64,000 bases of DNA. It comes from Rhodovulum euryhalinum (GTDB lineage: Bacteria; Pseudomonadota; Alphaproteobacteria; Rhodobacterales; Rhodobacteraceae). The notes under the pieces are model-generated. The model ran no database searches, was not told the origin of the DNA, and saw only the letters and a program-made list of their open reading frames with translations. Position 1 is the first letter of the stretch. Each line of letters starts with the position of its first letter. Position numbers and translations under genes: made by a program. Location of the stretch: assembly GCF_004342445.1 (NCBI RefSeq), contig NZ_SLWW01000007.1, positions 1 to 64,000 of the forward strand, given 5' to 3'. Positions 14,801-18,694 of the stretch are shown here, piece after piece.

Positions 14801-14858
14801 CGGGCAATCTGGCCCGCCGCGGCAGGGAATCCTTGCCCGCGGGCCGCGGCGGCGCATG

Positions 14859-15686
14859 ATGCAAGCCATGAGGGACGCGGGACATCCACGGCGCAGCATC
14901 GGCCATTCGACCAACATGGTGGGGCGCTCGCCGGACTGGCTGGCCAGTGCCGGTTTCAACGACGCGCCCGAACCCCTGCACATCTGGGGCGTGCGCGAGA
15001 TGAACCCCAGCCTGTTCGCCATGCTGGACCGGGCCGGGGATCCGGCCGAGGCGGGGGCGGCGTTCCTGGCCTACATGATGGCGATGTTCGGCATCGACCC
15101 CGAACAGCGCGACGAGGGTGCCGGGGGGCGGCGCTTTCGCGCGTCCTTCCTGCGGCTGATACAGGGCTGGAGCTTTGACAGCAACGGCCCCGAGGGCGCG
15201 GTGCTGAAGGGCTGGGTCGAAAGCCGGTTCGGCCTGTGCCCGTCGTTCCACAAGGCGATCATCGACGAGGCCGCGGGCCCCGCCTGGGCGGCCTATGTGG
15301 ACGAAAAGATGGCAAGCCGGTTCCACGCCAATGCCATCTGGGTGCAGCTCGACCTGCTGTTCGAGTTCTGCCAGTGGGCGGTCGCGCGCTTTGCCTTTCC
15401 GGGCCAGACGCATCTGACGCTGTTCCGCGGGGTCAACGCCTTCGACGCGCATGGCATCGCCGAGTGGACCGGGGGCCGCGGCGCGGTGGTCCGGCTGAAC
15501 AACCTTGTCTCGTTCACCTCGGACCGCGAGGTGGCGGATTGTTTCGGCGACCGGATCCTGACCGTCCGGGTGCCGCTGTGCAAGGTGCTGTGGTTCGGCG
15601 GGCTGCTGCCCTCGCACCCGCTGCGCGGCGAAGGCGAGGTGCTGGCGGTGGGCGGCGATTTCCGGGTAAGCGCGGATTATGTGTAG
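14859..15686 (+). CDS. draT: NAD+-dinitrogen-reductase ADP-D-ribosyltransferase
   Basis: Transfers ADP-ribose from NAD+ to a specific arginine of nitrogenase Fe protein, switching nitrogenase off in response to ammonium or darkness in purple bacteria. The 275-residue product begins soon after its start with the DraT opening SIGHSTNMVGRSPDWLAS. It carries an R-S-E style catalytic set: R in LFRGVNAFD, the S/T pair in VSFTSDREVADCF, and E in GEGEVLAVGG near the C-terminus. Starts at 14856, 14859 and 14868 are all possible, and no clear Shine-Dalgarno sequence decides. draG follows after 9 bases. No typical sigma-54 promoter was found in the 58 bases upstream. Confidence 0.93.
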   Translation: MQAMRDAGHPRRSIGHSTNMVGRSPDWLASAGFNDAPEPLHIWGVREMNPSLFAMLDRAGDPAEAGAAFLAYMMAMFGIDPEQRDEGAGGRRFRASFLRLIQGWSFDSNGPEGAVLKGWVESRFGLCPSFHKAIIDEAAGPAWAAYVDEKMASRFHANAIWVQLDLLFEFCQWAVARFAFPGQTHLTLFRGVNAFDAHGIAEWTGGRGAVVRLNNLVSFTSDREVADCFGDRILTVRVPLCKVLWFGGLLPSHPLRGEGEVLAVGGDFRVSADYV

Positions 15687-15695
15687 GGCAAGGCC

Positions 15696-16577
15696 ATGAC
15701 CGGGACGGGTGTCGAGGACAGGGCGCTGGCCGCCTATCTGGGCTTTGCCATCGGCGATGCGCTGGGCGCCACGGTCGAGTTCATGACCGCGCGCGAGATC
15801 GCCGCGAAATACGGCACGCACCGCGAGATCATGGGCGGCGGCTGGCTGGGGCTGCGGCCGGGGCAGGTGACCGACGACACCCAGATGGCGCTGGCGCTGG
15901 GCTGGTCGATGCTGCGGGTGGGCGGGCTGGAGCCCCGCGATGTCTGCGAGGAATTCGCCGCATGGCTGCGCACCGGCCCTGCCGATGTCGGCAATACCTG
16001 CCGCCGGGGCATCCGCCGCTACATGCAGACCGGTACGGTCGAGGGCGCCTTTGCCGAGGGCGATGCCGGGAACGGCGCGGCGATGCGGGTGCTGCCGGTT
16101 GCGCTGGCGACGCTGGGCGATCCGGCCCGCGCCGCGGAGTGGACGCTGGCGCAGGCGCGCACGACGCATCACCATCCGCTGTCCGATGCCGCCTGCCAGA
16201 CGCTGGTGCGCATGGTGCAGGGGCTGGTGCACGGGCAGGGGGTGCAGGCGGTGCGCGACGAGGCCGCGGCGCTGGTGGCGCGCCACCGGGTGTTCCGGTT
16301 CGATCCCTTCCCGGGGCAGAGCTCGGCCTATGTCGTCGACACGATGCAGACGGTTCTGCATCACTACATGGGCGCCGAAAGCTTCGAGGCCTGCGTGGTG
16401 GGCACCGTCAATCAGGGTGGCGACGCCGATACCACGGGTGCGCTGGCGGGGATGCTGGCGGGCGCGACCTGGGGGCTTGGCGCGATCCCGGCGCGCTGGC
16501 TGGATGTGCTCGACCCCGAGGTGGCCGGGGACATCCGGGCGCAGGTGCCGCGCCTGCTGGCGCTGGCGCGGGGCTGA
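15696..16577 (+). CDS. draG: ADP-ribosyl-[dinitrogen reductase] hydrolase
   Basis: Removes ADP-ribose from the nitrogenase Fe protein and restores its activity, opposing DraT. The 293-residue protein has the binuclear-metal signatures of ADP-ribosylglycohydrolases: VTDDTQMALAL near residue 55, GNGAAMRVLP in the middle, and QGGDADTTGALAGMLAGA near the C-terminus with its paired aspartates. It lies 9 bases after draT in the standard draTG order and is transcribed towards the phosphatase-kinase gene, whose stop is only 15 bases away. In diazotrophs DraG is sequestered at the membrane through AmtB-GlnK; those genes are not in this window. Confidence 0.95.
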   Translation: MTGTGVEDRALAAYLGFAIGDALGATVEFMTAREIAAKYGTHREIMGGGWLGLRPGQVTDDTQMALALGWSMLRVGGLEPRDVCEEFAAWLRTGPADVGNTCRRGIRRYMQTGTVEGAFAEGDAGNGAAMRVLPVALATLGDPARAAEWTLAQARTTHHHPLSDAACQTLVRMVQGLVHGQGVQAVRDEAAALVARHRVFRFDPFPGQSSAYVVDTMQTVLHHYMGAESFEACVVGTVNQGGDADTTGALAGMLAGATWGLGAIPARWLDVLDPEVAGDIRAQVPRLLALARG

Positions 16578-16592
16578 GGCGGCGGTTGCCGG

Positions 16593-17816
16593 TCAGCCGA
16601 GGCGCCGGGCCATATCGGCCTTGCGCGCGATCATCCGGTCCGCCAGCACGGGCCGGCCGCCCATTCCGGCCACGGCCCGCCGGATCGCGTCGTCGGGCAG
16701 ACGCGTCACCACCCGGATCGCCACCGTGACCGCGGCATCATCCATGTCGCCGAACAGGCGGGCGGCGTGCGGGTTGTCCGGGTCGGTGCGCAGCCGGTCC
16801 AGTTCGTCGACGGTGGTGCCGAACGCGCGGCCCTTGGGATCGCCGCTGGCGCGGTACTCAAGCGCCCCGCCCATGTCGAGCGTCAGCACCACCCCGCCCG
16901 CCACCCCCTGGTTGTCGCCATCGAACCCGGCCGCGTCCCAGTTCGCCGTCCAGGCATGCACCCCCAGCCAGCCCTGCGCCTGCCGCCGTTCGCCGGGGCT
17001 GAACCCGGCGATGTGGCGCTTGTCCAGATCGACGAAGGCGGTCGCCACCAGGGCCGGGTCGGTCATCGGCAGGTAGTTTAGCGTCGGCGCCCCCGCCAGG
17101 CGGTAAAGCCGCGCCGCGATCCGTTCGTTCAGGGCGTGCGCCGCGCTTTCCAGTTCCTTGACATAGATCCGGCGCCCAGCGCTGTCGCGGTAGAGGCCGC
17201 CGGGCGTGCTTCCCAGCCGCCCGCCGATCCGCTCCAGGTCCGCGATGTCGAGGGGGCCCTCGTCGGCCAGCGCCAGCGTCCGGCGCACGGCGGCCAGTTG
17301 CGAGGGCGTCTCGATCGCGCCCGGCCGCGCGCGGCGCACCGCGCGGATGGCCGCGTCGGGCGCCATGCCCAGTTCGGCCAGCAGGCGCGCCGCGATCATC
17401 CCCGCGCGGCCCAGCCCGCCCTTGCAATGCACCAGCACATCGCCGCCCCCGCGCAGGATGGCGCGGATATCGCGGCCATCGGCCTGCCATGCGGCCTCGA
17501 ACGCCGGGGTCGGCACCGAGTAATCCGCGATCGGCAGGTGGCGCCAGTCAAGCCCCCGGGCCACAGACTCGGCGCCCAGATCGGGCACCTTCAGCGCCAC
17601 CAGTTCGGCGGGTTCCACCAGCGTCAGCACAAGCCGCGCGCCCCAGGCGGCGATCGCGTCCAGATCGGTGGCCAGGTCGCGCGCCCAGGCCCCGGTGGCG
17701 GCGGCCGGGTCCTGCTTGCCGGGGCAGAAGGTGATGCCGATCCGGCCCAGGCCGGGGCCCGCCCGGACCTCGGCGATCTGAAGGGGGTGGGTCAGGCTTG
17801 TCCGTGACCGGGCCAT
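16593..17816 (-). CDS. CDKN3-like dual-specificity phosphatase fused to an atypical kinase-like domain
   Basis: A 407-residue soluble protein with two parts. Residues 1-185 match CDKN3-type dual-specificity phosphatases: ITFCPGK near residue 30, general-acid candidate Asp98 in HLPIADY, and the P-loop HCKGGLGRAG with Cys131 and Arg137. Residues 205-400 are separate. They show a buried-lysine pattern (RIYVKELESAAHALNE, Lys220 and Glu230), then ANWDAAGFDGDN (Asp294, Asp301, Asn302) and LTLDMGGAL (Asp314). This resembles the lysine, catalytic aspartate/asparagine and metal-aspartate order of HipA/PI4K-like atypical kinases. The kinase assignment is inference. The start at 17816 is preceded by AGGATGACGGA. 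It ends 15 bases from draG, convergently. Confidence 0.7.
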   Translation of the reverse strand: MARSRTSLTHPLQIAEVRAGPGLGRIGITFCPGKQDPAAATGAWARDLATDLDAIAAWGARLVLTLVEPAELVALKVPDLGAESVARGLDWRHLPIADYSVPTPAFEAAWQADGRDIRAILRGGGDVLVHCKGGLGRAGMIAARLLAELGMAPDAAIRAVRRARPGAIETPSQLAAVRRTLALADEGPLDIADLERIGGRLGSTPGGLYRDSAGRRIYVKELESAAHALNERIAARLYRLAGAPTLNYLPMTDPALVATAFVDLDKRHIAGFSPGERRQAQGWLGVHAWTANWDAAGFDGDNQGVAGGVVLTLDMGGALEYRASGDPKGRAFGTTVDELDRLRTDPDNPHAARLFGDMDDAAVTVAIRVVTRLPDDAIRRAVAGMGGRPVLADRMIARKADMARRLG

Positions 17817-18190: not shown

Positions 18191-18694
18191 ATGTCGCTTT
18201 CCGAAGATTTCCTGCATGGCGAGGACCTTCACCCCATCGACATCGTCGAACACCTCGCCGAACACCGCGACTGGGAGTTCGACCGGGTCACCGACGACCA
18301 GATCGCGATGGCGGTGACCGGGCAGTGGCGGACCTATTCGATCACGCTAGCCTGGTCGGGCCATGACGAAATGCTGCGGCTGATCTGCACCTTCGAGATG
18401 GAGCCGCCCGAGCACCGGGTGCAGGCGATCTACGAGACGCTGAACGCCACCAACGACATGTGCTGGGCCGGCGCCTTCACCTATTGGCACGAGCAGCGGC
18501 TGATGGTGTGGCGCCACGGGCTGATGCTTGCCCCGGGCCAGCCGGTCGCGGCCGAACATGTCGAGCGGCTGATCCGCACCGCGGTCGCGGCGTCCGAACG
18601 GTTCTATCCGGCCTTCCAGCTTGTCGCCTGGGGCGACCGAACGCCCGCGGATGCGCTGCAAGTCGCCATTGCAGAGGCCTACGGCCGCGCCTAA
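18191..18694 (+). CDS. YbjN-domain protein
   Basis: A 167-residue cytoplasmic protein of the YbjN family, alpha/beta-folded and structurally akin to type III secretion chaperones, with no agreed biochemical role. E. coli YbjN affects motility and stress tolerance. The conserved start HPIDIVEHLAEHRDWEFDR and the middle LNATNDMCWAGAFTYWHEQ support the call. Homologues are commonly encoded just before proC in Rhodobacteraceae, as here, where proC starts 31 bases later. Confidence 0.85.
   Translation: MSLSEDFLHGEDLHPIDIVEHLAEHRDWEFDRVTDDQIAMAVTGQWRTYSITLAWSGHDEMLRLICTFEMEPPEHRVQAIYETLNATNDMCWAGAFTYWHEQRLMVWRHGLMLAPGQPVAAEHVERLIRTAVAASERFYPAFQLVAWGDRTPADALQVAIAEAYGRA

Follow-up and report, generated by a model that had tools for sequence, protein, structure and literature searches.

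A 64,000-nucleotide stretch of the Rhodovulum euryhalinum genome (contig NZ_SLWW01000007.1, positions 1 to 64,000; hereafter the window) carries a gene for a phosphatase domain followed by a kinase-fold domain, next to draT and draG, whose products switch nitrogenase off and on and are the standard bacterial example of reversible ADP-ribosylation. We refer to the phosphatase/kinase combination, whether in one gene or two, as the module; among the bacteria searched, it was found almost only where draT is present. The gene and draG are convergent, and draT, whose start codon was picked by eye, lies directly upstream of draG.

16593..17816, minus strand: whole gene, phosphatase domain then kinase-fold domain; 407 amino acids, ATG start
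17274..17804, minus strand: phosphatase domain, KAP/CDKN3-like, residues about 5-181
17406..17429, minus strand: active-site loop HCKGGLGR (Cys131, Arg137), residues 130-137
16596..17261, minus strand: kinase-fold domain, residues about 186-407
17157..17159, minus strand: Lys220 codon, presumed ATP lysine (invariant residue)
16935..16937, minus strand: Asp294 codon, within the NWD stretch; presumed catalytic Asp by analogy with the HipA motif (invariant residue)
16911..16913, minus strand: Asn302 codon, presumed metal ligand (invariant residue)
16875..16877, minus strand: Asp314 codon, presumed metal ligand (invariant residue)
16578..16592: 15-base gap that separates the stop codons of the phosphatase-kinase gene and draG, which converge here
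15696..16577, plus strand: draG, ADP-ribosyl-[dinitrogen reductase] hydrolase; TIGR02662, 431 bits, cut-off 337
14856..15686, plus strand: draT, dinitrogenase reductase ADP-ribosyltransferase; PF07357, 342 bits, cut-off 25

The initial annotation had placed the gene 15 bases from draG in convergent orientation, and draG indeed ends at position 16577, with opposed stop codons. The open reading frame is real rather than a chance one, since relatives are encoded at 75 loci of other genomes, with best segments 51 to 78% identical.

Judged by its sequence, the N-terminal half is a CDKN3/dual-specificity phosphatase (DSP)-type protein phosphatase of predicted activity. The assignment follows from both profile scores and fold: the Pfam profiles PTP-SAK, Tc-R-P, and CDKN3 scored over their curated cut-offs at residues 46 to 173 of the window protein, and the HCx5R loop and an upstream aspartate (Asp98) are both present. 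The intact HCKGGLGR active site named in the initial annotation lies at residues 130 to 137. Across 78 aligned phosphatase halves (the window's included), Asp98, His130, Cys131, Gly133, Gly134, Gly136, and Arg137 occurred in 77, the remaining row being gapped. PHROGs matches were confined to residues 93 to 177 and carried the labels thymidylate synthase and dual-specificity phosphatase, while an NCBIfam search of the window protein gave two matches only, far below cut-offs.

Pfam gave no match in the second half of the window protein, the HipA_C profile (PF07804) included, and a comparison of this half with PDB sequences returned one chance-level row (E = 0.61); in a phage-type homologue, PF07804 reached 16.8 bits, under its cut-off of 30.5. 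Fold match lists for the full-length protein were filled mostly by phosphatases, and the C-terminal half was therefore modelled alone. The model has a kinase fold, with structural matches that include CtkA, actin-fragmin kinase, HipA, and HipT and, lower down, the lipid kinases PI4K and PI3K, in keeping with the HipA/PI4K-like fold first proposed. The C-terminal half thus resembles CtkA, actin-fragmin kinase, and HipA in predicted fold and in a Lys, Glu, Asp, Asn, Asp set but differs from them in its 8 to 15% identity in structural alignments and in the missing HipA_C match. Lys220, Glu231, Asp294, Asn302, and Asp314 were invariant in an alignment of 66 C-terminal halves, and Asp301 was at least 90% conserved. 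These residues are the ones picked out in the initial annotation except for its Glu230, since residue 230 is an asparagine and the glutamate is residue 231. A script comparison of the window's domain with 11 remoter C-terminal domains, from phages, viral contigs, Streptomyces, and prophage-type copies, showed Lys220, Glu231, Asp294, Asn302, and Asp314 to be kept in all of them; Asp301 is replaced by Asn in the Streptomyces copy and His287 of the module family by Asp in 9 of the 11. By analogy, Lys220, Glu231, Asp294, Asn302, and Asp314 are presumed to have kinase active-site roles. The W-x-x-N-x-D stretch resembles the HipA motif; its spacing from Asp294 to Asn302 is three residues longer than in HipA.

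The relatives came from one scan of genome contigs for exact peptides; such a scan picks up close relatives, and the resulting set was not randomly drawn. The 75 loci span Alpha-, Beta-, and Gammaproteobacteria, plus drafts titled Desulfovibrionales and Sunxiuqinia, and include Rhodovulum, Phaeovulum, Blastochloris, Rhodopila, Rhodoblastus, Methylomonas, Zoogloea, Allochromatium, Rubrivivax, Derxia, Marinobacterium, Vibrio albus, and Shewanella mangrovi, among others. With three loci added from genomes of the window's genus, 78 loci were examined; the window itself (L001) and L005 and L006, apparently two pieces of one interrupted gene in genome G004, were excluded, and two pairs that look like the same two strains (L002/L028, the latter from Rhodovulum strictum, and L004/L012, the latter from Rhodovulum kholense) were kept in the following counts. 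The two halves share an open frame at 21 of these loci and are separate tandem genes, phosphatase before kinase, at 55; at the other 2, the phosphatase was found without the kinase half. The gene that follows a phosphatase-only copy (L081) had no kinase-domain match. Given these counts, the common unit is a phosphatase/kinase pair of which the fusion is one form; the single polypeptide described in the initial annotation is real here and is the less common arrangement.

A few loci showed further variation. At L030:6001-6930 (Rhodovulum visakhapatnamense JA181), counted as fused, the gene is apparently interrupted, as in G004; the frame stops at 310 codons, and near full-length draT and draG matches adjoin it. 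Rhodoblastus acidophilus DSM 142 (G110) has two module copies (L017 and L027) and two draT matches, and the Rhodoblastus genomes G107 and G112 likewise have two draT matches each.

The order of the two genes raises the alternative of a toxin-antitoxin pair, in which a HipA-like kinase toxin would lie downstream of, or be fused to, a phosphatase antitoxin. A possible kinase start codon that overlaps the phosphatase stop by four bases in 19 of the 55 tandem loci would suit such a pair, as would the presence of HipA and HipT among the structural matches. However, the C-terminal half evolves slowly (53 to 74% identical to the window's across Alpha-, Beta-, and Gammaproteobacteria), it is fused in 21 of 78 loci, and the module co-occurs with draT, all of which we judge unusual for toxin-antitoxin pairs; we consider this explanation very unlikely.

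Physical linkage of the module to draT and draG is the minority state. In the fetched flanks, a draT match was present at 12 of 78 loci and a draG match at 11 (10 and 9 of 76 without the two likely duplicate strains). The initial annotation had staked its proposal on a kinase fold in the second half and on linkage to draG-like genes beyond this strain; we found both, although draG linkage is uncommon and the genome-wide co-occurrence with draT described below is the stronger association. Linkage took three forms. The convergent arrangement of the window recurs in Rhodobacterales, in Blastochloris, and in one Acetobacteraceae draft. Rhodobacter sp. CZR27 shows it too, with a gene table that lists draG and the transferase and omits the module. 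In R. acidophilus DSM 142, a divergent draT, the genome's more distant one (45% identity), adjoins the second module copy (L027). In a Thalassolituus draft (L074), draT, phosphatase, and kinase follow one another on one strand, with the phosphatase start 12 bases past draT and a divergent draG-like gene alongside. Besides the module, clusters of open reading frames recurring in at least 5 of 74 loci had sizes of 10, 9 (DraT by position), 8 (DraG by position), and 5; those of 10 and 5 loci were not identified by any search. Membership of the module in a nif cluster was considered and set aside, as no neighbour recurred widely among the 74 loci, whose flanks were not searched with nif profiles.

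The association with draT was much stronger at the level of whole genomes. Fifty of the 75 loci entered the carrier search, in which 48 genomes were searched. A DRAT match was present in 47 of the 48, nifH over cut-off in 46 (45 of these with DRAT), and a TIGR02662-type glycohydrolase in 47 (39 over cut-off). By comparison, 25 of 38 nifH genomes in a phylum-wide sample have DRAT, and at that rate the chance of at least 45 of 46 is about 1e-7 if kinship and the route by which carriers were found are ignored. In two drafts, G124 and G125 (L035 and L037), the module occurs with draT and a draG-type gene, but nifH gave no match at E = 1e-50; either they are incomplete or the module is used outside nitrogenase.

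Four samples of genomes served as controls. Among the 398 genomes of the phylum sample, a C-domain match at E = 1e-6 or better occurred in four; three of these (one being the window's own genome) were at E < 1e-100 and all had DRAT, and in the fourth (G479, 2e-43) the protein starts with a phage MuF domain. The module was in 3 of 25 DRAT genomes versus 0 of 13 with nifH and without DRAT, a difference too small to be informative on its own; DRAT was sought in the 38 genomes with nifH over cut-off, which leaves out the other 360. In a sample of 16 genomes from the window's genus, DRAT was present in six and the C-terminal half in five, all DRAT-bearing, and in none of nine genomes with nifH and without DRAT (Fisher P = 0.002); module and draT are linked in this genus, and one of the five carriers, G004, has the interrupted gene. 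In the family of G126 (57 genomes), all five carriers were among the 21 genomes with DRAT (Fisher P = 0.005), with module and DRAT on separate contigs or 1.7 Mb apart; nifH (22 genomes) and DRAT (21) nearly coincide there, and so the two cannot be separated. In the family of G113 (61 genomes), 3 of 3 carriers had DRAT, the other 58 genomes not being searched for it.

A phylogenetic tree of 81 DraT proteins ruled out that carriers form a single DraT clade, since the carrier label changes 12 times, with at least 9 of these changes forced by well supported branches. The carriers in the tree were 46 of the 47 with DRAT (G129, broken in two, was omitted), G149, G307, G567, and the window; the noncarriers were G006, 17 of the 22 found in the phylum sample, and 13 of the 16 from G126's family. 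Four of the carrier rows sit on long branches. The label is nevertheless clustered, as shuffled labels averaged 25 changes and none of 500 shuffles had as few as 12. The carrier state is clustered but was gained or lost several times. Because every genome in the tree has DraT, the tree cannot show that gains need DraT.

These distributions bear on a further alternative, that the module is unconnected with DraT and merely indicates a lifestyle, as an accessory gene of diazotrophs (purple, methane-oxidising, and others) in which draT happens to be kept as well. The carrier set is biased and partly related by ecology, module neighbours are not conserved, and many draT genomes lack the module, all of which speak for such a marker. 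Against it stand the 47 of 48 carriers with draT although the gene is mostly unlinked, the single genus in which 5 of 6 draT genomes carry the module versus 0 of 9 with nifH and without draT (linked there), and the two kinds of draT linkage beyond the convergent one (L027 and L074). We regard an ecological marker as unlikely.

Relatives of the phosphatase outside the module point to ADP-ribosylation in part. Among the nearest separate plasmid relatives, the Roseomonas phosphatase adjoins a glycohydrolase gene and those of Leisingera and Cereibacter are fused to a glycohydrolase, while the Thauera relative has no glycohydrolase neighbour. The coupling of CDKN3-like phosphatases to ADP-ribosylglycohydrolases mentioned in the initial annotation is thereby supported, and it is also documented in section 3.8 of PMC9503650, where slightly more than 55% of the glycohydrolase neighbourhoods surveyed contain a coupled phosphatase and such phosphatases are proposed to process released ADP-ribose.

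The kinase domain recurs in phages. We found 19 phage records (29 to 39% identity, with a phage entered twice in some cases) and four viral contigs (46 to 47%, three perhaps from one virus). In Dolphis, Mecenats66, and Touem01, the kinase-domain protein ends in an ADP-ribosyltransferase domain over the Pfam cut-off; in ST4, the C-terminal transferase match is below it. Forza gp78 has no transferase domain, and the second gene after its own is annotated as a transferase, which had no Pfam match in the part fetched. A NUDIX gene lies two places downstream of the kinase-domain gene in Dolphis, Mecenats66, and ST4, and a plasmid-borne phage-like protein of Pseudomonas juntendi is a single chain with a NUDIX, a kinase-like, and a transferase domain. 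The L087 protein has 1,094 residues, with the kinase domain within it and a transferase domain over cut-off. Proteins with a kinase-like domain in mid-chain and a C-terminal ADP-ribosyltransferase are encoded at the following positions.

L090:2066-5734
L091:2012-5728
L096:2120-5737
L082:2624-7024
L087:3967-7251

A NUDIX domain or gene is near some of these five. Overall, the domain of these phage MuF/ADP-ribosyltransferase proteins is a homologue of the C-terminal half, with 29 to 47% identity and the five key residues in the 11 copies compared, and sits in larger proteins (734 to about 3,300 amino acids in the records retrieved), several of which also contain the transferase. The module, in contrast, combines the kinase domain with a phosphatase, and its transferase is a separate protein. 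No description of such kinase-transferase proteins was found in the excerpts of the literature consulted; the polyvalent phage proteins treated in the available part of PMC5512222 carry another kinase group, in which the C-terminal subdomain is lost.

The module might act on ADP-ribose itself. The kinase would phosphorylate ADP-ribose, free or on NifH, and the phosphatase would undo this, so that DraG would be blocked or ADP-ribose recycled. The phage chains that join kinase and transferase domains, the NUDIX domains or genes nearby, the phosphatase relatives adjoining or fused to glycohydrolases, and the proposal in section 3.8 of PMC9503650 are all compatible with such chemistry. However, three glycohydrolase-linked phosphatases had no such kinase gene in the fetched, annotated stretch. 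Moreover, the top matched kinases of known target (CtkA, actin-fragmin kinase, and HipA) phosphorylate proteins, even if PI4K and PI3K appear lower down, and we know of no free phospho-ADP-ribose in diazotrophs. Action on ADP-ribose, the main rival of the reading favored below, is possible but doubtful. A bolder version, which we regard as a long shot, is that the ADP-ribose on nitrogenase reductase (or the region of the Arg-ADP-ribose bond) would be phosphorylated by the kinase half and so locked against DraG, the phosphatase would unlock it, and the phage transferase-kinases would be an attack version; if true, this would constitute a phospho-ADP-ribose code on a metabolic enzyme.

Each half has relatives that are fused to, or neighbours of, proteins of ADP-ribose transfer or removal, and in the genomes searched the two halves together accompany DraT. 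The reading that we favor, and to which we give about even credence, is that the module is a kinase/phosphatase switch, an optional accessory of DraT-DraG that acts by reversible phosphorylation of a protein of the pathway. The CDKN3-type phosphatase and the CtkA/HipA-fold kinase, fused here and tandem in most relatives, would form one switch. The kinase half would phosphorylate a DraT-DraG pathway protein, most likely DraT or DraG, and the phosphatase half would reverse that phosphorylation; a second signal (energy, redox, or carbon state, not ammonium) would tune the readiness of nitrogenase switch-off. What has been shown is the domain make-up, the conserved presumed active sites, the modelled kinase fold, the pairing of the halves, and the co-occurrence with draT in the genomes searched; that the halves are active enzymes, that they act in opposition on one substrate, and which substrate and signal are involved are inferences.

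Several observations weigh against it. The carriers were collected by a scan that picks up close relatives, not by random sampling. One draft, G138, has the module and nifH without a DRAT or TIGR02662-type glycohydrolase match. Of the draT genomes, 22 of 25 in the phylum sample lack the module, as do 16 of 21 in G126's family, and thus DraT and DraG can work without it. No neighbour besides the module is common to more than 10 of 74 loci, draT and draG flanking few. Two distant phosphatase relatives examined lie in arsenic operons, and the phosphatase is therefore not tied to ADP-ribosylation everywhere.

L100:2498-3001: phosphatase relative between arsH and an ArsO-type gene
L101:2495-2995: phosphatase relative between arsB and an ArsJ-associated dehydrogenase

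Finally, a scan of the 250 bases upstream in 77 regions (window included) showed no clear enrichment of sigma-54 sites over first-order shuffles, and the best site in the window was poor. Scores of at least 11 occurred in 31 regions versus 22.5 expected, of at least 12 in 4 versus 4.8, and of at least 13 in 3 (L027, L055, and L075) versus 0.55. A few single loci may carry such a site, and given the lack of a clear signal, expression of the module may not be under nitrogen control.

One other neighbour in the window is a YbjN-family gene (18191-18694, plus strand), divergent to the phosphatase-kinase gene. YbjN-related chaperones occur in the glycohydrolase systems of PMC9503650 (section 3.8); beside the relatives of the module, no YbjN-like neighbour was prominent, with no profile search aimed at YbjN.

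The domain types are known, and their combination and the tie to DraT appear undescribed in the titles and abstract openings of the open-licence papers searched. KAP/CDKN3 and PTP-SAK phosphatases (PF05706 and PF22784) are here joined to or paired with a kinase-fold domain and associated with draT. A close parallel is provided by the antiviral ADP-ribosylglycohydrolase and rhodanese-phosphatase systems of PMC9503650, where, as here, a related phosphatase lies by a DraG-type glycohydrolase. Those systems by definition have no transferase coupled to them, and a regulator of the WYL or NUDIX type is frequent, whereas draT is adjacent here and present in 47 of 48 carriers and a kinase is added; near the module, no neighbour occurred in more than 10 of 74 loci, and two small neighbour clusters lack names. 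The module is adjacent to the DraT-DraG nitrogenase switch in the window and co-occurs with it genome-wide in the genomes searched. In excerpts of the DraT-DraG literature, the controllers named are PII and AmtB, and we found no mention of a kinase or phosphatase acting on DraT or DraG.

That the module, among the bacteria searched, was found almost exclusively in draT genomes suggests an unknown control layer on the nitrogenase switch. Such a conserved kinase/phosphatase pair would give that switch a second input and would join two modification chemistries. Because this kinase domain also occurs in ADP-ribosyltransferase proteins of phages, it may more generally be a domain that works with ADP-ribosyltransferases.
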